Below are positions 1,216-14,943 of a stretch of DNA of 24,823 nt, piece by piece. The position numbers and the translations under genes were made by a program. Source of the DNA: a virus; the IMG/VR virus record IMGVR_UViG_3300011252_000463, positions 1 through 24,823 of that record; one strand, given 5' to 3'. Under the pieces are notes generated by a model. It was given only the letters and a program-made list of their open reading frames with translations, was not told the origin of the DNA and searched no databases. The stretch's first letter is position 1. Each line of letters starts with the position of its first letter.

Positions 1216-2323
1216 TTTACTGATACTGCTAGGGTTGGTATTTTGCACACCGACTCTAGCAGCAATTGGTAATATTATCGATCAAGATGGACCAGACGCT
1301 GAGTTGAAACGTCAGGAAGAAAACCTTGTTGCTAAAAAAGGAACAAGTCTTGAAATGAGCGATGTCTTGACTACCACAAAAACCAAACTCAATCTGAAGT
1401 TTGCTGATGACACTTACGTCGCAATGACGGAGCAAAGTAAACTAATCATTGACGATTTTGTTTACGATCCTGATGCAAAGAAAGGTAGTCTCTCAATGGA
1501 AGTTGCCGCAGGAACGGTGCGTTATGCTTCTGGTAAGATAGCAAAAAATAATCGCAGAAATGTAAGACTCAAAACACCAACTGCTACAATATCTGTTCGA
1601 GGAACTGACTTCAGTATGACGGTTGACGAGATTGGTAGAAGTATGGTTGTTTTATTGCCCTCTTGCGACGACTTCGGTTTGATAGAAAATAAAGACGATG
1701 AGAACAACTGCCCTGTTGGTGAGATTATGGTATCCACCGATGCAGGTCACGTGATAATGAATCAGGCATATCAGGCAACAGTAGTTGCATCTGCTTATCA
1801 AACACCAACCAAACCAAGAGTATTAGAAGATAAACCATTACTCAACAATCTACTTATCATTGCACCACCTGAAGAATTTCCTAAAGGGTTTAATTCTGAT
1901 GATGAAGAAGAATATGTTCAAGTTACATTCTTAGATCAAGACCTGTTAGAGTTCGACGAATTAGTACAAGATTTATTAAGCGGTGGTGTAGATGATCTAA
2001 ATGACACCAGTGAGTTAGATCGAAATTATTTGGACGGAGACTTTTTGGTTAATTTACTTGACCTAGCAACTGATCCTGGTCTTGGTGATGCACTACAAGA
2101 GTTTGATGGTGTGCTGCCTACAATCGGCGAGCATCCATGGGTCAATTATTACTACAACGAAGAAGTGGTCAATCTATACTCAGAGCAACCACCTCATGTT
2201 GCTGAGATACAAACTGAACGAGATACCAATGCAACAACAATCATAAATCAAAATGATGTTAGAGCGTACATTATTCAGAATGGAGGGGATGATGTTCAAA
2301 TTAATATCATTCAGTCTAATTAG
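1181..2323 (+). CDS. FecR-domain periplasmic protein with curlin-like C-terminal tail
   Basis: The N-terminus has a hydrophobic signal segment ending in TPTLAA, followed by a FecR-type domain: KKGTSLEMSDVLTT, LKFADDTYVAM, a G-T-V-R-Y turn, and the diagnostic TPTATISVRGTDF. The later half is acidic, low in recognisable motifs (many D/E/L), and ends with a curlin-like unit (INQND...IIQNG...INIIQSN). FecR domains are periplasmic and often sit beside CHASE2-cyclase genes in bacteria, and a CHASE2 cyclase follows in this operon. The start is uncertain: no ATG exists before the signal segment, only GTG at 1181 or TTG at 1175, both inside the curlin gene. The gene therefore overlaps curlin by about 35 bases in another frame and may rely on translational coupling. 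The family call is firm, the start is not. Confidence 0.8.
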   Translation: MQAIQLILLKTNLLILLGLVFCTPTLAAIGNIIDQDGPDAELKRQEENLVAKKGTSLEMSDVLTTTKTKLNLKFADDTYVAMTEQSKLIIDDFVYDPDAKKGSLSMEVAAGTVRYASGKIAKNNRRNVRLKTPTATISVRGTDFSMTVDEIGRSMVVLLPSCDDFGLIENKDDENNCPVGEIMVSTDAGHVIMNQAYQATVVASAYQTPTKPRVLEDKPLLNNLLIIAPPEEFPKGFNSDDEEEYVQVTFLDQDLLEFDELVQDLLSGGVDDLNDTSELDRNYLDGDFLVNLLDLATDPGLGDALQEFDGVLPTIGEHPWVNYYYNEEVVNLYSEQPPHVAEIQTERDTNATTIINQNDVRAYIIQNGGDDVQINIIQSN

Positions 2324-3614
2324 TCTATTCTTTTGTTCTGTCGCTCAAGCAGAAACAGCGTTCATCTATTACAGCACAGGTAGCACAAACACTAGCTCTC
2401 AATACACGAATCTAAAGAGCGAACTTGAAGGATTAGGATTTACTGTAACAGGCAGTACAAGTGGTACAGTTAGTTCAACTGATATATCAGGTAAAGATTT
2501 AGTCATTGATATTGCTGGTTCTTCAAACTGCGGCAGTACTTGCAAAACAAACTACAACAACTATGTATCTGGTGGTGGCAAATTGCTTGTAGTGGGATCT
2601 AACGGAGCAACCAATAGAAATGCTAGTATAGAATCATTGATTGAAAGTAAAATGAGTGTAGGCAGTTTTACTCAAGGTGGAGGTTGCAGCACTTGCTATG
2701 CTAGTACAGCAGTAGGAGATTATGCAAGTAGCACTTCAAGTGAAAATACACTTCCTGGATCAGACAAATATATGTACAACATGTCAGGTGGTACACCAAT
2801 GGCAACTAATGGTTCATCAAGTACAATTTCAATATGGTACAAATGGGATTATGGATCTAACGGTGGAAGTGTAGCAGTTACTTTTGGTTATGGTCAATTT
2901 TTATCAACTCATACATATGCTAATAATATGGATGCATTTTTAGCAAGGGTGCTCGAAGAAGAAGGATTGTATACATCATCTAGTAGTTCATCACCAACAC
3001 CATCATATTCTTCTGGACCAACTTCTGCACAACAAACTAGAATAAACTCTGCTATATCTAATGTTACGACTAGTGGCGATGGACCGAAGATAGACGTTGA
3101 TATTACAGGAATGGATAATACTATTTACATTGATCAGGCAGGGGAACCGAGTTATTTACTATTAGATGTAATAGGTAATACAAATATGATTGATATCGAT
3201 CAAGACGCAACTGGTGCTTCAAATTTCGGGCATTATTCAGAGGTGCTTATAGATGGTGATAGAAACGATTTAGATTTACTACAATCAGGCACTGGTAACA
3301 AAGCTGCATTTGTAGATATCGGTGGGGATGATAATGTGATTGATATAATACAGAGAGATGGTGGTAGTCATTATCTACAACTTGATTTAATAGGTGATGA
3401 TCATAATGCAAACGTATTACAAGAGGGATCTGGTAATCATGCCGCAACAGTAGAACTAACAAACAGTGGTGGCGGTTGGGACTTTGATTTAATACAAAGT
3501 GGAACGAACAATAAAACATATAGTCTACCGCATAGTATGAGTGATGGAACCACTACTAGCGGAACTTGCTCTAACGTAGCAGGGTGCAGTTTAAGCGTCA
3601 CGCAAGGCGACTAA
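2292..3614 (+). CDS. Two-part secreted protein: unknown N-domain plus curlin-like repeats
   Basis: 440 residues from the ATG at 2292, chosen because GGAGG at 2282-2286 lies at proper spacing and a signal peptide (MFKLIS...SVAQA) starts there; the frame is open further upstream. The gene overlaps the end of the FecR gene. Residues 21 to about 235 look like an alpha/beta fold: a first strand TAFIYYSTGS, a helix with LKSELEGLGF, a strand KDLVIDIAG, then GGGKLLVVGSNG, resembling ThuA/flavodoxin-like folds. It has two close cysteine pairs (CGSTC, CSTC). A Ser/Pro linker (SSSSSSPTPSYSSG) leads to about 150 residues of curlin-like units such as NTIYIDQAG, NMIDIDQD, NDLDLLQSGTGN and NVIDIIQRDG. I do not recognise the N-domain. 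It may be an adaptor or cap that anchors a globular head to a curli fibre; that is inference. Confidence 0.75.
   Translation: MFKLISFSLISLFFCSVAQAETAFIYYSTGSTNTSSQYTNLKSELEGLGFTVTGSTSGTVSSTDISGKDLVIDIAGSSNCGSTCKTNYNNYVSGGGKLLVVGSNGATNRNASIESLIESKMSVGSFTQGGGCSTCYASTAVGDYASSTSSENTLPGSDKYMYNMSGGTPMATNGSSSTISIWYKWDYGSNGGSVAVTFGYGQFLSTHTYANNMDAFLARVLEEEGLYTSSSSSSPTPSYSSGPTSAQQTRINSAISNVTTSGDGPKIDVDITGMDNTIYIDQAGEPSYLLLDVIGNTNMIDIDQDATGASNFGHYSEVLIDGDRNDLDLLQSGTGNKAAFVDIGGDDNVIDIIQRDGGSHYLQLDLIGDDHNANVLQEGSGNHAATVELTNSGGGWDFDLIQSGTNNKTYSLPHSMSDGTTTSGTCSNVAGCSLSVTQGD
3084..3520 (+). repeat. Degenerate curlin-type repeats inside the two-part protein gene
   Basis: About six to seven units of roughly 22-25 residues show the spacing N-x-(I/L/V)-x-(I/L)-x-Q-x-x-(G) with D or N at the turn. 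Examples are NTIYIDQAG, NMIDIDQDATG, NDLDLLQSGTGN, NVIDIIQRDG, NANVLQEGSGN and a final DFDLIQSGTNN. The DNA itself is not repeated; only the protein periodicity is visible. Confidence 0.6.
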
Positions 3615-4411: not shown

Positions 4412-5189
4412 CGATAAAGAAATACAATTCATACTTGGTCCATGTCAAATAGAAAGTTATAATCATGCTTTGTTTTTGACATCGGAAATTAAAAAGATAT
4501 GTGATAAATTAAATGTGAAGTTTATCTTTAAAGCAAGTTTTGATAAAGCAAACAGAACTAGCATTAATGGTAAACGTGGTCTTGGAATGGAAGAGGGATT
4601 AACTGCTTTATATGCGTGCAAGCATGCTCATGGTGTCCCTATTCTAACTGATATACACGAACCATCGCAAGCAGAAAGAGTAGCAGAAGTTGTAGATGTA
4701 ATACAAATCCCTGCTCTCTTATCACGGCAAACTGATCTACTCATTGCTGCAGGTAAAACTGGCAAGATTGTAAACGTAAAGAAGGGGCAGTTTATGTCAC
4801 CCTTTGATATGAAGCACGTTGTCGATAAAATCAAATCTACAGGCAATGATAACATTTGGTTGACAGAGCGTGGAACGTTCTTTGGTTATAACAATCTAGT
4901 CAACGACATGCGTGGTTTAGTTCAGATGCGCGAAAGTAATTGCCCTATAATCTTTGATGCAACACATAGCGTACAGTCACCGAGTGGTCAAGGTGATAGT
5001 AGTGGTGGGGATAGAACTATGGTTCCTCACTTAGCACGTGCAGCAACTGCGGTAGGAATAGCAGGGTTGTTTATGGAAGTACACGACGATCCTGATAATG
5101 CAGCAAGTGATGGACCAAACTCAGTAAGATTAGATAATTTAGAAGGTATACTAGAATCAATAATAAAAATTGACAAGGCAGTCAAATGA
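4386..5189 (+). CDS. kdsA: 3-deoxy-D-manno-octulosonate-8-phosphate synthase (metal-dependent class)
   Basis: 267 residues, near the usual 270-285. KdsA condenses phosphoenolpyruvate with arabinose-5-phosphate to give Kdo-8-phosphate, the precursor of the lipopolysaccharide inner core. Family motifs appear in order: LGPCQIES (17-24), FKASFDKANR (48-57), TDIHEP (88-93), IPALLSRQTD (108-117), NVKKGQF (130-136), ERGTFFGYNN (161-170), DATHSVQ (191-197). Cys20, His194, Glu231 and Asp242 match the metal ligands of the Aquifex-type enzyme, where E. coli KdsA has Asn at the Cys position, so this is the metal-dependent class. The ATG lies inside the preceding gene, and the stop overlaps the cyclase start (ATGA). 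No other Kdo gene (kdsB, kdsC, kdsD) is in the window, so product use would rely on the host or on genes elsewhere. Confidence 0.95.
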   Translation: MNQLVTLSNDKEIQFILGPCQIESYNHALFLTSEIKKICDKLNVKFIFKASFDKANRTSINGKRGLGMEEGLTALYACKHAHGVPILTDIHEPSQAERVAEVVDVIQIPALLSRQTDLLIAAGKTGKIVNVKKGQFMSPFDMKHVVDKIKSTGNDNIWLTERGTFFGYNNLVNDMRGLVQMRESNCPIIFDATHSVQSPSGQGDSSGGDRTMVPHLARAATAVGIAGLFMEVHDDPDNAASDGPNSVRLDNLEGILESIIKIDKAVK

Positions 5190-7255
5190 AAAAACTATTA
5201 TCACCATATTGGGCACTGATAACTCTTGCGTTGCTCACGTTTGTATTTCTACAAAAACCAAACTTCACGGAAAGTATAAAACTCAACTACTTTGATTCGT
5301 TGATTACTTCTCGTGATGCAGTAGAAAATAATATCTACACAGCAAACATTGACGAACTAGCATTAGAAAAATATGGACAGTATCCATTTCCGCGTGATGT
5401 CTATGCTCAGATAATTGAAGATCTGTATAACAGTGGTGCTGGTTTAGTTATATGGAATATTATGATGCCTGAGGCAGATCGCTTTGGTGGTGATGAACAG
5501 TTATCTACAACCATGATGGATTATCCTGTTATCTTAGCAAGTAGACCGAGTGATAAAACTAAGAACGAACCAGTAAATCCAGGTGCAGTTATTATCAACG
5601 ATAATTATCTTGATACATTATTGCCTTATGCTGGAATTATTGCTAATGTTCCTTTGTTAGAAAACTCTGCTGTTGGTGCTGGTATCGTATCTACTGAACC
5701 AGAAATAGACGGTGTAAATCGTAGACTACCTACAGTTGCCGTAGTCGACGGTGTATTGTATCCCAGTCTAGCATTAGAAACTTTGCGTATAATCGCAGGC
5801 GATCCTAGTTTTCAAATAAAATTATCTCCGCTTGGTATTGATAAGATGCGTGTTCCTCAGTTTGGACCAATCACCACAGATGCTGAAGGTAGAGTTTGGA
5901 TAGATTGGGCACAACGAAGTAAGTCATTCTCCGTAGCAGATATGCCTGAGGATATCGGTGGCGCAGTGGTCATTGTCGATGTAACTGCTGCAGGTATCGC
6001 TAATCCAGTTCCTACTCCTATGGGAGCGATGTTCCCTGCTGAGATACAAGCATCTATGTTAGGGACTATGTTCAATCAAACCAATATAGAGCGTCCTTAT
6101 TGGGCAGAGAATATAGAGGTTCTAGGACTGTTTCTCGCGTCTCTCCTGATCATTATCGTGTCAAGGTGGATATGGGTAGGTTTAGGACTAACGGTGCTCT
6201 TAGGCGCGTCTCTCGTCCCTCTGAGCATGTATTATTTCAATAAAAACCTCTTTTTACTGGATGCAACCGCTCCAACCATCACTATAATACTTGTTGCACT
6301 GCACACCTATGGTATCAAGTTCGTCAGAGAATATCTAGAGAAACAAGCAATAAAGAAGCAATTTGCTGGATATTGCTCACCAGAGGTGGTGAAACTATTG
6401 CAAGAGAATCCATCATTAGTTCAAGACGGTATCAAGAAAGACATTACTATTTGTTTCAGTGATCTGCGAGGTTTCACAAATCTAGGCGAAAAGTATGGCG
6501 ATGATGTAAAGGGTTTGACTGAAGTGATGAATGGTTATATGGATGCAATTACGCAACCAGTGCTTGATGCAAACGGTATGGTAATTAAATATATTGGTGA
6601 TGCGTCAATGCATATACATAATGCACCAATGGATGACCCCAATCACGCACATAACGCAGTTCAAACAGGACTAAATATGCTTTCTGCAGTAGATAAATAC
6701 AATGAGTTTTTGAAAACCAAAGGAATACCTGAAGTTGGCATGGGTGCTGGCATAAATTCAGGATTCGGATTTATTGGCGAGATGGGTTCAACTTCTCGTC
6801 ATGCTTATGATGTATTAGGTGATGCTGTAAGTACAACTGCAAGACTTGAGAGTCAGTGTAAAAATTATGGTGTGTTGTTGATTGTTGGTCCAGAAACATA
6901 TACTAGAACTAAAGAAGATTTCTTTTATTTAAAACTTGATGATTTAGCAGTAAAAGGTAAGTCATACGGATTAGATATATATACAGTACTGCGAGGAAAA
7001 GAAGGAGATACGTTTTCTTGGTCCAATCACTATATGGTAGATTGGTCTGCTGATAAAGAACTGCACCATCATATGCATAAACTTTATCAAGACAAAAATT
7101 TTCAAATGGCAATTGGTGTATGCAATAAGTTAAAGGGTTCATTTGATGGACAAATGGATTCTTATTATGATATGTGGATTGAACGATGTAAGTTTATGAA
7201 GACGCAAAAACTTCCAAAAGATTGGAATGGCGTGTTCGTTGCCACAACAAAGTAG
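5186..7255 (+). CDS. CHASE2-domain membrane adenylate cyclase (class III)
   Basis: 689 residues. A first membrane segment (about 7-23) leads to an extracytoplasmic CHASE2 sensor (about 28-300; NIDELALEKYGQYPFPRD, EPEIDGVNRR). Three membrane helices follow (about 312-327, 330-350, 354-376), then a cytoplasmic class III cyclase domain (about 393-602). Metal-binding Asp426 (FSDLRGF) and Asp472 (KYIGDA), adenine-selecting Lys468 and Asp542 (AYDVLGDAV), and transition-state Arg553 are present. The transition-state Asn is Ser549 (DAVSTTAR), which could lower activity. A C-terminal extension of about 85 residues (HHHMHKLYQDKNFQ) looks helical, perhaps TPR-like. The product would be cAMP. CHASE2 cyclases commonly neighbour FecR-domain genes in bacteria, as here, so sensing of envelope or fibre state is a reasonable inference. 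It is translationally coupled to kdsA. Confidence 0.92.
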   Translation: MKKLLSPYWALITLALLTFVFLQKPNFTESIKLNYFDSLITSRDAVENNIYTANIDELALEKYGQYPFPRDVYAQIIEDLYNSGAGLVIWNIMMPEADRFGGDEQLSTTMMDYPVILASRPSDKTKNEPVNPGAVIINDNYLDTLLPYAGIIANVPLLENSAVGAGIVSTEPEIDGVNRRLPTVAVVDGVLYPSLALETLRIIAGDPSFQIKLSPLGIDKMRVPQFGPITTDAEGRVWIDWAQRSKSFSVADMPEDIGGAVVIVDVTAAGIANPVPTPMGAMFPAEIQASMLGTMFNQTNIERPYWAENIEVLGLFLASLLIIIVSRWIWVGLGLTVLLGASLVPLSMYYFNKNLFLLDATAPTITIILVALHTYGIKFVREYLEKQAIKKQFAGYCSPEVVKLLQENPSLVQDGIKKDITICFSDLRGFTNLGEKYGDDVKGLTEVMNGYMDAITQPVLDANGMVIKYIGDASMHIHNAPMDDPNHAHNAVQTGLNMLSAVDKYNEFLKTKGIPEVGMGAGINSGFGFIGEMGSTSRHAYDVLGDAVSTTARLESQCKNYGVLLIVGPETYTRTKEDFFYLKLDDLAVKGKSYGLDIYTVLRGKEGDTFSWSNHYMVDWSADKELHHHMHKLYQDKNFQMAIGVCNKLKGSFDGQMDSYYDMWIERCKFMKTQKLPKDWNGVFVATTK

Positions 7256-11321: not shown

Positions 11322-11633
11322 TTATGCAGCGAAACTTTGTCCGCAACCACAGGTTGCTGTTGCGTTTGGATTCTTTATGGTAAACTGTGCATTGAGACCA
11401 TCATCCTGATAATCTACTGTGCATCCTTGAAGATATTGCATACTTATAGAGTCTACTAGAAGATTATCGACTTCGAAGTCATCCTCCTCTGCCTTCTCCT
11501 CAAACGTGAATCCATAGTTATAACCAGAACAACCGCCACCTGTAATGAATAACCTAATTTTCATTGTGGTCAGAGATTGCTCTAGCGCAATGTCAGAGAT
11601 TTTCTTTTTTGCTGCTTCAGTAAGTTCTATCAT
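11322..11633 (-). CDS. A-type iron-sulfur carrier (IscA/ErpA/HesB family)
   Basis: 103 residues, close to the usual 107. The three invariant cysteines are present with standard spacing: Cys35 in FITGGGCSGYNYGF and Cys95/Cys97 in TATCGCGQSF. The N-terminal ELTEAAKKKISDI helix and DDGLNAQFTIKNPNA strand are also typical. An additional Cys71 (LQGCTVDY) is not part of the motif. A-type carriers bind an iron-sulfur cluster or iron and pass it to client proteins. Its ATG overlaps the stop of the tape-measure-like gene (ATGA), so it is translated with a tail protein and is the last gene of the late - strand unit. Whether it acts in host metabolism or in tail assembly is open. IscA and ErpA cannot be told apart here. 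Confidence 0.95.
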   Translation of the reverse strand: MIELTEAAKKKISDIALEQSLTTMKIRLFITGGGCSGYNYGFTFEEKAEEDDFEVDNLLVDSISMQYLQGCTVDYQDDGLNAQFTIKNPNATATCGCGQSFAA

Positions 11634-14062
11634 GGCATCACCATATCTTGTCTTACACCAGTATTATTTGTTCTTCTCGGAGAAACTTGTTGAGTATACG
11701 AATTACTACTTGACGCACTGGTAGAATTATCAGTAACTGTTGTGCTGTTATCGACCACAGTTACTCCATTTCCAGATTGTGCCTGTGATGCAGATATAGA
11801 ATTTACCGCACTACCACCAGCCGATGCTGATCCTGTTCCAGATGGACCGAAATTTCCGCCAGTTTGAGATCCAACACCTATGTTATAATATTCACTAGAC
11901 TTACTTCCATAAGCATCTTGTTTGACATTACCAGCTTTTAGTTGTGCTGCACCACCTGCTCCAACTAAGTGTGCTGCAGCGAGAAATCCTGCAACTTCTT
12001 CTGGACTAGACTGATTATCAATAACCTTTTTGCTCTTCAAATATCCTATTTGTTTATTGGTATATTTTCTCATAGCATCTTCTTGCATAGCAGGATTTCT
12101 TAGAAACTCTTCCTTGCTACCCTTCAACCAATTTTTAGGATCATTTAATGCTTTATTGCTATTAACACCTGACTTAACATATCCTGCGTCTTGTAGTGCC
12201 ATAGCACCCATTTGGTACATACCCAAATATCCTATGGTATTTTCAGCACCATAATTGCCACTACTTTCTCGTACACCTATTGCAGTTTTATATGAAGCGT
12301 AATCAAATCCACCAGAACTAGAAGAAGATGTAACTTGACCGCCAGTAACTTTTGGTTGTGGTTTATTCAACATTTCTTGAGTTAGTGTACCTGCTGCCAA
12401 AGCAGCTACTGCTGCATCACCACCTAATCCTTGTACTTGTTTTACGAACTGACCCTGAGCGACACCATCGCCAGTCTTTTTTGCTGCATTAAATCCTTTT
12501 TGTAGTGTAGTTGCAGTATCATCAATTGCACCTGGATCACCACCAATACCAGTTGACATATTGAGTGCTTTTTGCACTAACAATTTATCCGAATCTCGTA
12601 AATCGTCATGAGCTAAAATTCCTCTAAGTTCAGCTTGGGACAATTCACCAAGACGTGATGCATCAATCTCACTCGCTCCAATATAATCGTGGTCATATAT
12701 ACCTTTATCGATAGCGGATTTTAAAGCAAGTTTTTCGTTTAATTGTTTTTCAAATTCTTTTGCTTGCGCATCAAATCTATCATCCGCTTCATTAAAACTA
12801 TTTTCTGCAGCCTTAAGTGATCGAAGTAATGATTCACCTGCAGTACCACCAGAATCTTCAATTGCTTTAACTTGTCTAGCAATTTCGTTATATTCATCTG
12901 CAGCAGATTGTCTTTGCTCAAATAGTTTTTGAATAGTAGCCTGTTCAATAGTCGCTGAATCTAAAAATTGTTTTTCACGCATCAACTTATCATGTTCTAG
13001 TTTATATTCTCTCTCACTCATATTACCTTTGTCAGCTTCTAACGCTGCAAGATTTGCTGCTAATCCTTCTTTTCTTGCTATTAAATTTTCACTAGATTGA
13101 ATAAACTCTTTATCAAAATTAGGATCAAAGTAATCACCAACCCATCCCCCAACCATATTACCTAATGATGCACCGAGTACTGCACCCATTGGTCCACCGA
13201 TCAGACCTATCGCCCCACCAATAGCACCACCGATAACTCCACCAATATCTTCACCTTGTAGTTCAGTTTCAATTTTATTATCTAGTCCAGCAGAGAAAAG
13301 ATCATATCCATCTTTAATGTTGACTGCAAGTGATTCTGCAATTGCTAACGGTGGGAAAATTCTAGCAAATATTTTTGATGCTTTGCTAGCATCTAATGCT
13401 GTATCTGCAACCTTTCCAGCTTTAACTGCATCATCTGCTAATGATCCAGTTACTTTTCCTGTTTTACCACTTCTAATTTTTTCATCACGAATTTTTGTTT
13501 CTGCATCTGCTTGAACTTTAAGTCTATTTCGAGTTTCTTTTGAGGATTTGTTATTTGCCCGTCTTTCCTTTATTTCTTCCTTTAATGCTTTGTTTGATTC
13601 TACTTGTGCCTTACTAAGATTTTTAGTTTTTTTAGTAAGATCATCTATAGCACCTGTTGCTTTAGGTGTGCTTTTGAAAAATTTACTTATTTGCTTGAGA
13701 CCAAATGCACCTGCTACAGCACCAGCAACAGTTTTAGCGATAAAAGATCCAACACCACTACCACCATCGGATTGACCATTACCGCCAGTGGTAGCACCGA
13801 CACTAGCACCTGCTAACTTTTGTCTCCGAAGTTGTCGCATTCTTTCTCGACGTGCTTCATCTTCTGATTGGTAGAATTCTCTATGAAGTTCGTAAGTTTC
13901 ATCTAACCAATTTTCAACTCTACCTAATATTTGAGTTTGATTATCTAGTTTATCGCCAATATTATTGAACCCACTCTTTATCTTTGACGAAAGTTGAGTT
14001 TGATTTTTTAGAGACTTTTCTTGGTATTCTTTAGTCTTTGAATTAAAAAATGGTAGTGCCAT
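11630..14062 (-). CDS. Tape-measure-like tail protein with C-terminal lytic domain
   Basis: 810 residues. The N-terminal third is helical and charged (for example ELHREFYQSEDEARRERMRQ), typical of tape measures. Two glycine/alanine-rich hydrophobic stretches (about 104-123 and 273-311) resemble membrane-inserting segments of ejected tail proteins. Long coiled-coil-like helices follow (about 320-450). Around residues 590-730 is a probable muramidase/transglycosylase-like domain: AIGVRESSGNYG with Glu599 as candidate catalytic acid, then GYLGMYQMGAMAL. The last 80 residues are Ser/Thr/Asn-rich. It follows the gene 26 pair, where tape measures normally sit. It could replace T4 gp29, though no direct gp29 similarity is obvious. 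The catalytic role is inferred from motif shape only. Confidence 0.72.
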   Translation of the reverse strand: MALPFFNSKTKEYQEKSLKNQTQLSSKIKSGFNNIGDKLDNQTQILGRVENWLDETYELHREFYQSEDEARRERMRQLRRQKLAGASVGATTGGNGQSDGGSGVGSFIAKTVAGAVAGAFGLKQISKFFKSTPKATGAIDDLTKKTKNLSKAQVESNKALKEEIKERRANNKSSKETRNRLKVQADAETKIRDEKIRSGKTGKVTGSLADDAVKAGKVADTALDASKASKIFARIFPPLAIAESLAVNIKDGYDLFSAGLDNKIETELQGEDIGGVIGGAIGGAIGLIGGPMGAVLGASLGNMVGGWVGDYFDPNFDKEFIQSSENLIARKEGLAANLAALEADKGNMSEREYKLEHDKLMREKQFLDSATIEQATIQKLFEQRQSAADEYNEIARQVKAIEDSGGTAGESLLRSLKAAENSFNEADDRFDAQAKEFEKQLNEKLALKSAIDKGIYDHDYIGASEIDASRLGELSQAELRGILAHDDLRDSDKLLVQKALNMSTGIGGDPGAIDDTATTLQKGFNAAKKTGDGVAQGQFVKQVQGLGGDAAVAALAAGTLTQEMLNKPQPKVTGGQVTSSSSSGGFDYASYKTAIGVRESSGNYGAENTIGYLGMYQMGAMALQDAGYVKSGVNSNKALNDPKNWLKGSKEEFLRNPAMQEDAMRKYTNKQIGYLKSKKVIDNQSSPEEVAGFLAAAHLVGAGGAAQLKAGNVKQDAYGSKSSEYYNIGVGSQTGGNFGPSGTGSASAGGSAVNSISASQAQSGNGVTVVDNSTTVTDNSTSASSSNSYTQQVSPRRTNNTGVRQDMVMP

Positions 14063-14071
14063 AGTTGACTC

Positions 14072-14242
14072 TTATCTTTTTTGGTTATTGAGTTCTTCTA
14101 TATCTTGTAAATGCTGTTTCAATAAAGTTACATACACGTCTCGTTCAAATGGTATCATATTTTCTAGTTCTGTCAATGAATACTTATGATGATGAACCAA
14201 AGCAAAATTCATCTGATACATGTTTATCAAACTTTCATGCAT
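14072..14242 (-). CDS. Small -1-frame ORF after gene 26, probable tail-assembly chaperone extension
   Basis: From its own ATG (14242, overlapping the gene 26 stop as TGATG) it gives 56 residues: MHESLINMYQMNFALVHHHK, then YSLTELENMIPFERDVYVTLL and a short charged tail. The frame is open upstream as far as 14317, across a T7 slippery run at 14260-14254, so it can also be made as a C-terminal extension of the gene 26 product, by a -1 frameshift, giving about 290 residues. The own-start version has no good ribosome site within 15 bases. The HHxYS-x-x-E-L-E-x-M-x-PFER-x-V-Y pattern looks conserved-type, as in small ORFs at this place in marine T4-like phages. It lies directly before the tape-measure-like gene. 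Confidence 0.75.
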   Translation of the reverse strand: MHESLINMYQMNFALVHHHKYSLTELENMIPFERDVYVTLLKQHLQDIEELNNQKR

Positions 14243-14260
14243 CAGACCAACATAAAAAAA
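14211..14260 (-). promoter_or_regulatory. Putative -1 programmed ribosomal frameshift signal
   Basis: On the - strand: TTTTTTT (14260-14254), read in the gene 26 frame as T TTT TTT, so both tRNAs can re-pair perfectly after slipping back one base. A spacer of 6-8 nt follows. Then a stem pairs 14247-14236 with 14222-14211: a 10-bp core, CTGATGCATG with CATGTATCAG containing one G-U pair, extendable by a U-A and a G-U pair, with a 13-nt loop. The gene 26 stop lies within the 5' arm of the stem. The next ORF is in the -1 frame. Confidence 0.65.
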
Positions 14261-14943
14261 TCTTTGAGACCCTCCACCAACGCATAATCTTTTTCCCCAC
14301 ACTCTGCACAGTCCCATTCAATCAAATGACTTAACGATGGACCATCAGTAAAAAATGCTAATATTTTTTCAAACTGATCTTTATTTAAATGATCCAACCA
14401 TTCATCTAATTCTTCTGTAGTAAACTCATCATAAACATTATCATTATCGTAAATATATTCAACATTATCTTTCACCATAGCAAATAGATTTGAAGCAGTT
14501 CTTTCCATCATTTTTTCATCACTGTAAGTCGGATATGTTAGTTTAATTCCGATGCTATTATCTAATTCAATTTTGCCATCACTCACGCTACCAGTAATCG
14601 ATAAATCTTCAATGTCAAATACATATTTTGTTCTTGCTTTGCATTCACTATCACCATTGTGACTGAGAGTCATTTCTATTTGCTCGCCTACCGACTTCGA
14701 TCGTATTTGCATAAACAACCATTCAACATCAAATGTTGATAGTTTGTCTATATCAATACCTTTAGTTAATATACAATTTTTTAATAAATCTTTAACTGCA
14801 CCAATAATCGTTTCTTTTTCTCCATCTTCTAATGCAATTAAAAGTATCTTTTCTTCCTTTACCAAAAATGGTCTAAATTTTATATTTTTGTTCGTAGATG
14901 GTAATTTGGTCTTAAACTCAGGTACAGATAATGTAGGTAACAT
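14242..14943 (-). CDS. 26: T4 gp26-like baseplate hub/assembly protein
   Basis: 233 residues from ATG 14943 (GGAG 7 bases upstream; a TTG two codons earlier is less likely). The N-terminus has MLPTLSVPEFKTKLPST and the family-typical KFRPFLVKEEKILL. The C-terminus has a CxxC pair (WDCAECGEKDYALVEGLKDFF), as in the T4 baseplate-protein family of gp26. In T4 gp26 is needed for hub assembly. Its stop overlaps the ATG of the next ORF, and a candidate -1 frameshift site lies three codons before the stop. The pair, just upstream of the tape-measure-like gene, resembles G/GT chaperones of long-tailed phages, so an assembly-chaperone role is a serious alternative to a structural hub role. Confidence 0.85.
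   Translation of the reverse strand: MLPTLSVPEFKTKLPSTNKNIKFRPFLVKEEKILLIALEDGEKETIIGAVKDLLKNCILTKGIDIDKLSTFDVEWLFMQIRSKSVGEQIEMTLSHNGDSECKARTKYVFDIEDLSITGSVSDGKIELDNSIGIKLTYPTYSDEKMMERTASNLFAMVKDNVEYIYDNDNVYDEFTTEELDEWLDHLNKDQFEKILAFFTDGPSLSHLIEWDCAECGEKDYALVEGLKDFFMLV

Follow-up and report, generated by a model that had tools for sequence, protein, structure and literature searches.

The locus raises the question of whether a gp26-like gene and the gp51-like reading frame that overlaps its end are two genes translated one after the other, or a single gene from which some ribosomes would slip into the –1 frame, yielding a short and a long form of one protein. The window (i.e., the whole stretch analysed, 24,823 nucleotides of IMG/VR virus record IMGVR_UViG_3300011252_000463) carries the gp26-like gene on the – strand at 14242..14943. 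Its 3′ end reads GTG GAG GGT CTC AAA GAT TTT TTT ATG TTG GTC TGA and contains the slippery heptamer U UUU UUU in the gp26 frame (14254..14260, –); further X XXY YYZ heptamers occur in this frame of gp26 only at 14782 and 14389, neither of them close to the stop codon. The –1 frame is open through the heptamer down to a stop at 14072, giving an extension of about 60 amino acids plus the stop (14072..14253, –). The unslipped product has 233 amino acids, and the conceptual long form via –1 slippage (14072..14943, –) has 290 (285 counted from residue 6). The gp26 stop codon shares bases with an ATG at 14242 (TGATG).

The short form (TAC-N) matched PF12322 (T4_baseplate, E 3.8e-57) and phrog_150 (E 5.6e-61), and the –1 extension, a gp51-like TAC-C domain, matched phrog_634 (“baseplate hub assembly catalyst”, i.e., gp51; E 3.9e-23) and could be aligned across 44 loci with its invariant residues present. 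Since PF12322 covers T4 gp26 as well as residues 1–201 of T4 gp51, these two T4 proteins are paralogs, T4 gp51 consisting of a gp26-like domain and a C-terminal extension. When 50 conceptual long forms (TAC-NC) were combined in a profile, hhalign aligned it with a T4 gp51 profile through the junction, over 236 columns (probability 99.1, E 1.3e-18). Taken separately, the extension matched the gp51 C-terminus (E 1.3e-9) and gp26 the gp51 N-terminus (E 1.7e-11), and hhalign gave no match when the domain pairs were swapped between long form and gp51. Moreover, the phrog_150 profile extends into the extension, although PHROGs keeps phrog_634 separate.

The AlphaFold model of gp26 (pLDDT 93) matched solved tail assembly chaperones in VIA-align, with the match confined to residues 1–89 and Z-scores of about 8, i.e., 3fgx (Z 8.1, rmsd 3.4, 84 aligned), 2ob9, the HK97 tail assembly chaperone (Z 7.9, rmsd 2.8, 78 aligned), and 3klu, YqbN (Z 7.6, rmsd 3.1, 80 aligned). 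3fgx and YqbN are reported to be phage tail assembly chaperones too (Pell et al. 2013). After these three structures the scores fell to Z 4.8 for 5ir0 and then to Z ≤2.9 for unrelated chains. Foldseek alone returned no E-value below 0.001 for the gp26 model against the PDB, and profile searches of PDB sequences with gp26 and with the extension yielded no significant hit. The extension was modelled as four helices (pLDDT 77), and a structure search with this model gave no noteworthy fold match. As an aside, 5ir0 is ORF19 of a Vibrio cholerae PICI-like element (gp26 residues 2–85, rmsd 3.7, 78 aligned), a satellite protein that may thus resemble a tail assembly chaperone.

Homologs of the junction were collected from IMG/VR and from annotated phages, yielding 128 unique junctions, which fall into 55 clusters that share less than 60% protein identity. 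In all 128, U UUU UUN directly precedes the gp26 stop codon, with 3–12 nt from the end of the heptamer to the end of the stop codon, and the –1 frame continues as an extension of 40 amino acids or more. The phages concerned comprise cyanophages, a methylophage, Caulobacter phage Cr30, and phages of Vibrio, Aeromonas, Rhizobium, Sinorhizobium and Stenotrophomonas. The combination of heptamer and –1 extension is far beyond chance.

Upstream of the heptamer lies a Shine-Dalgarno-like GGAGGG (14270..14275, –), of which the GGAGG core (14275–14271) ends 10 nt before the slippery site. In half of the junctions (64/128), the first base of GGAGG lies exactly 15 nt ahead of the heptamer, and GAGGG at –14 adds 22 more. 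The Leu-Glu-Gly encoded at this site is conserved, and the Glu codon is GAG in 86 cases vs. GAA in 22, while at other positions of these genes GAG makes up only 26.5% (p 1.5e-30, or 2e-10 on the 55 divergent representatives, which correct only partly for the treatment of related sequences as independent). Since GAG is preferred over GAA although the encoded Glu is the same, the nucleotides themselves appear to be selected. The 10-nt spacing falls within the 9–14 nt known for upstream Shine-Dalgarno elements that stimulate –1 shifting, as in dnaX (PMC5009743), and the GGAGG is probably a 5′ stimulator of slippage, as judged from its sequence and position.

Downstream of the heptamer, a 6-nt spacer (ATGTTG) is followed by a predicted hairpin (14211..14247, –) with a 12-bp stem and a 13-nt loop, its 3′ end at 14211. 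Its MFE is –17.6 kcal/mol (z –2.6 vs. dinucleotide shuffles), and 2 out of 150 synonymous shuffles of the window folded equally well. Across 93 loci the first 60 nt downstream folded more stably than their synonymous shuffles did (mean z –1.25), compared with mean z-scores of –0.17 for the following 60 nt and of –0.31 and –0.40 for two upstream control windows. Likewise, stems of at least 8 bp were present downstream in 60/128 loci vs. 10/128 in a control window. These stems vary from clade to clade; that of the window also occurs in six close relatives, where 91.7% of cells are paired. The spacing of 6 nt agrees with the 5–9 nt between slippery site and stem-loop in dnaX-type signals, and the hairpin probably acts as a 3′ stimulator. 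A preliminary description of this DNA had proposed the in-frame heptamer, a 6–8 nt spacer, a hairpin of 10–12 bp, and a –1 frame open across the site that would give about 290 instead of 233 residues, all of which hold here. It had also asked for conservation among relatives: heptamer and –1 overlap are kept in every one of the junctions, while stem covariation is thin, amounting to one two-sided pair (C-G, A-U, U-A) in six sequences that was reached by 154 of 500 shuffles.

As an alternative to frameshifting, gp51 could be translated alone from the ATG at 14242, by termination-reinitiation at TGATG helped by the upstream GGAGG. Besides the overlap of this ATG with the gp26 stop codon, such an arrangement draws on the separate gp51 genes annotated in S-PM2, P-SSM4, CZ01, PX29 and phiN3, and on the fact that a Shine-Dalgarno element close to a gene end can serve translational coupling (PMC5009743). 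However, within a stretch of the –1 frame that begins 30 nt ahead of the heptamer start and ends 54 nt past it, no ATG, GTG or TTG occurs in 41/128 loci and no ATG in 60/128, although the heptamer is present in all of them. Moreover, the Shine-Dalgarno-like element holds a fixed distance to the heptamer rather than to any start codon, and T4 gp51 is a covalent fusion through the junction. Two overlapping, separately initiated genes are thus quite improbable, and independent initiation was rejected as the general mechanism since many relatives have no start codon for it. Reinitiation at TGATG is nevertheless possible as the source of an additional product in this phage.

Fusion could also come about during transcription, if RNA polymerase slipped on the T run and produced mRNAs with one base more or less. 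The run of seven T in the window would lend itself to this, but the seventh base of the heptamer is C in 82 of the 128 relatives (U in 41, A in 4 and G in 1), leaving just six T followed by C in most of them. Six T is a short run for polymerase slippage. The conservation furthermore obeys the ribosomal X XXY YYZ phasing, with the Shine-Dalgarno-like element and the hairpin at ribosomal distances. Transcriptional slippage was rejected on the six-T-then-C pattern, and we regard it as very improbable.

The phasing itself is evident at the codon level. Two Phe codons are preceded by a T-ending codon in 128/128 junctions (AGT, GAT, AAT, TCT, GCT or GGT), even as the encoded residue varies between D, S, N, A and G (p 2e-27 on all 128 and 4e-13 on the 55 representatives), and the first Phe codon is always TTT vs. 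a background of 75% (p 2e-16 and 1e-8, respectively); as above, these p-values treat related sequences as independent. One could suppose that gp26 simply ends in a conserved Asp/Ser-Phe-Phe and that the AT-richness of the DNA turns this into the poly-T and the overlap; FF is indeed conserved in the protein, and these genes use TTT more often for Phe. This reading can practically be dismissed, since the remaining FF pairs of the same ORFs read T TTT TTN in 7/125 cases, as opposed to the fixed third-base T and TTT here, and since T4-type phages retain FF yet write it GA(A/G) TTC TTT.

This last comparison involved eight loci of T4-type phages in which gp26 and gp51 are encoded separately; all eight have the latter spelling, and the slippery site is absent from each of them. 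The site occurs where it is needed and is missing where a separate gene encodes the long form. The comparison is a clean one, with the signal present in some lineages and no signal in T4-type phages with separate paralogous genes.

Returning to –1 frameshifting, the gp26/gp51 locus very probably encodes a tail assembly chaperone made in a short and a long form. This reading, drawn from sequence comparison and structural models, is supported because the conservation of the junction, the codon constraint, the absent start codons, the gp51 fusion homology and the tail assembly chaperone fold all point to it. The same evidence bears out the earlier suggestion of a chaperone pair like lambda G/GT made by –1 slippage, and the collinearity of the PF12322 protein gp51 with the long form, together with the fold match, agrees with its recasting of gp26-like proteins as chaperones with a long form.

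For this phage we infer the following course of events, including slippage itself and how often it happens, what the stimulators do, and which partners the products bind. The majority of ribosomes would terminate at 14242 and produce TAC-N (233 amino acids). A fraction would be paused by GGAGG/anti-Shine-Dalgarno pairing 10 nt upstream and by the hairpin 6 nt downstream, and would shift –1 on U UUU UUU with both Phe-tRNAs, reading on to 14072 and producing TAC-NC (290 amino acids) with its helical C-terminal domain. If the pair works like lambda gpG/gpGT, the numerous TAC-N could coat the tape measure protein encoded by the next gene, and the scarce TAC-NC could bring in tube subunits. More tentatively, a two-stimulator cassette (i.e., internal Shine-Dalgarno element plus lineage-specific hairpin) might operate in T4-like marine phages, with a free gp51 C-domain arising by TGATG reinitiation in phages like this one and hence three products from one gene, a proposal that we consider rather doubtful.

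The next gene (11630..14062, –) encodes an 810-amino-acid tape-measure-like protein with a hydrophobic segment that gives Gly-zipper matches at residues 272–313, which lie under Pfam cutoffs, and a muralytic-like C-terminal domain (phrog_27932 at 582–753). Its counterpart in Cr30 is annotated as tail tape measure, while none of the tape measure family models matched the protein; we infer it to be the tape measure protein. The position directly upstream of a tape measure that had been proposed earlier thus stands as regards a tape-measure-like neighbour, the identity of that neighbour being presumptive. An A-type iron-sulphur carrier gene (PF01521, E 1.5e-14; 11322–11633, –) adjoins the tape-measure-like gene downstream.

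Elsewhere in the window of this T4-like marine phage, a curli-like cluster (2–547, 544–1215, 1175–2323 and 2253–3614, all +) comprises CsgG (PF03783, E 5e-43) alongside a FecR-domain protein and two proteins with curlin repeats (PF07012). Pelagimyophages and Melnitz have csgGF and no csgA or csgB (PMC9004378), so the curlin subunits in the window would make for a fuller curli module than that of csgGF-only phages. A gene for a DAHP/KDO8P-synthase-family enzyme (PF00793; 4386–5189, +) is followed by one for a CHASE2-adenylate/guanylate cyclase (5186–7255, +), and in Melnitz-3 a cyclase gene likewise lies near gp26/gp51.

With regard to annotation, the “baseplate hub” protein gp26 and the “hub assembly catalyst” gp51 of cyanophages and other marine T4-like phages are most likely one chaperone in its short and its long form. 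This reveals a frequent annotation error, in which gp51 is listed as a separate gene or overlooked entirely; the GenBank entries of ACG-2014j (KJ019089.1) and S-WAM1 (KU686210.1), for example, lack the gp51 extension, which the –1 frame nevertheless encodes.

Among known systems, lambda gpG/gpGT has a slippery sequence that differs from the U UUU UUU found here, and the likeness to it lies in the fold match to the related HK97 chaperone. The lambda slippery sequence is G GGA AAG. E. coli dnaX likewise combines a heptamer with an upstream Shine-Dalgarno element and a downstream stem-loop, but it is an unrelated gene with another heptamer. That heptamer is A AAA AAG, and the dnaX shift yields a shorter product. 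In E. coli, U UUU UUU is less prone to shift than A AAA AAG (PMC5009743). Closer to this locus, the tail assembly chaperone locus of the Vandenendeviridae (phage Adele, PMC12846349) has a conserved –1 frameshift at a poly-T site and a C-domain annotated as a separate gene, although its motif is GTTTTT and the phage family is a different one.

The closest precedent concerns T4-like phages themselves. Vladimirov, Gautam and Davidson (Virology 2022;566:9–15) reportedly identified their tail assembly chaperones, naming T4 genes 26 and 51, and described frameshifting in several groups and a short plus a long gene in others; the statement in the preliminary description that no such report was known for gene 26 of T4-like phages therefore does not hold. 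The part of the PRFect paper (PMC10885494) that summarises this work says that some T4-like phages have two genes, one short and one a long fusion, in place of frameshifting, and the passage of PMC12846349 that cites it does so for poly-T slippery sites within TAC-N genes of T4-like phages. Our full-text literature search for frameshifting in cyanophage tail assembly chaperone genes found no paper treating the subject. The protein family (PF12322) and the short and long forms are the same as in the 2022 proposal, whereas the statistics on the Shine-Dalgarno-like element and the hairpin and the IMG/VR survey were computed here. The gain over the 2022 principle consists of its confirmation, its extent and the anatomy of the stimulators, and the locus is a well-supported new example of that principle rather than a new kind of system.
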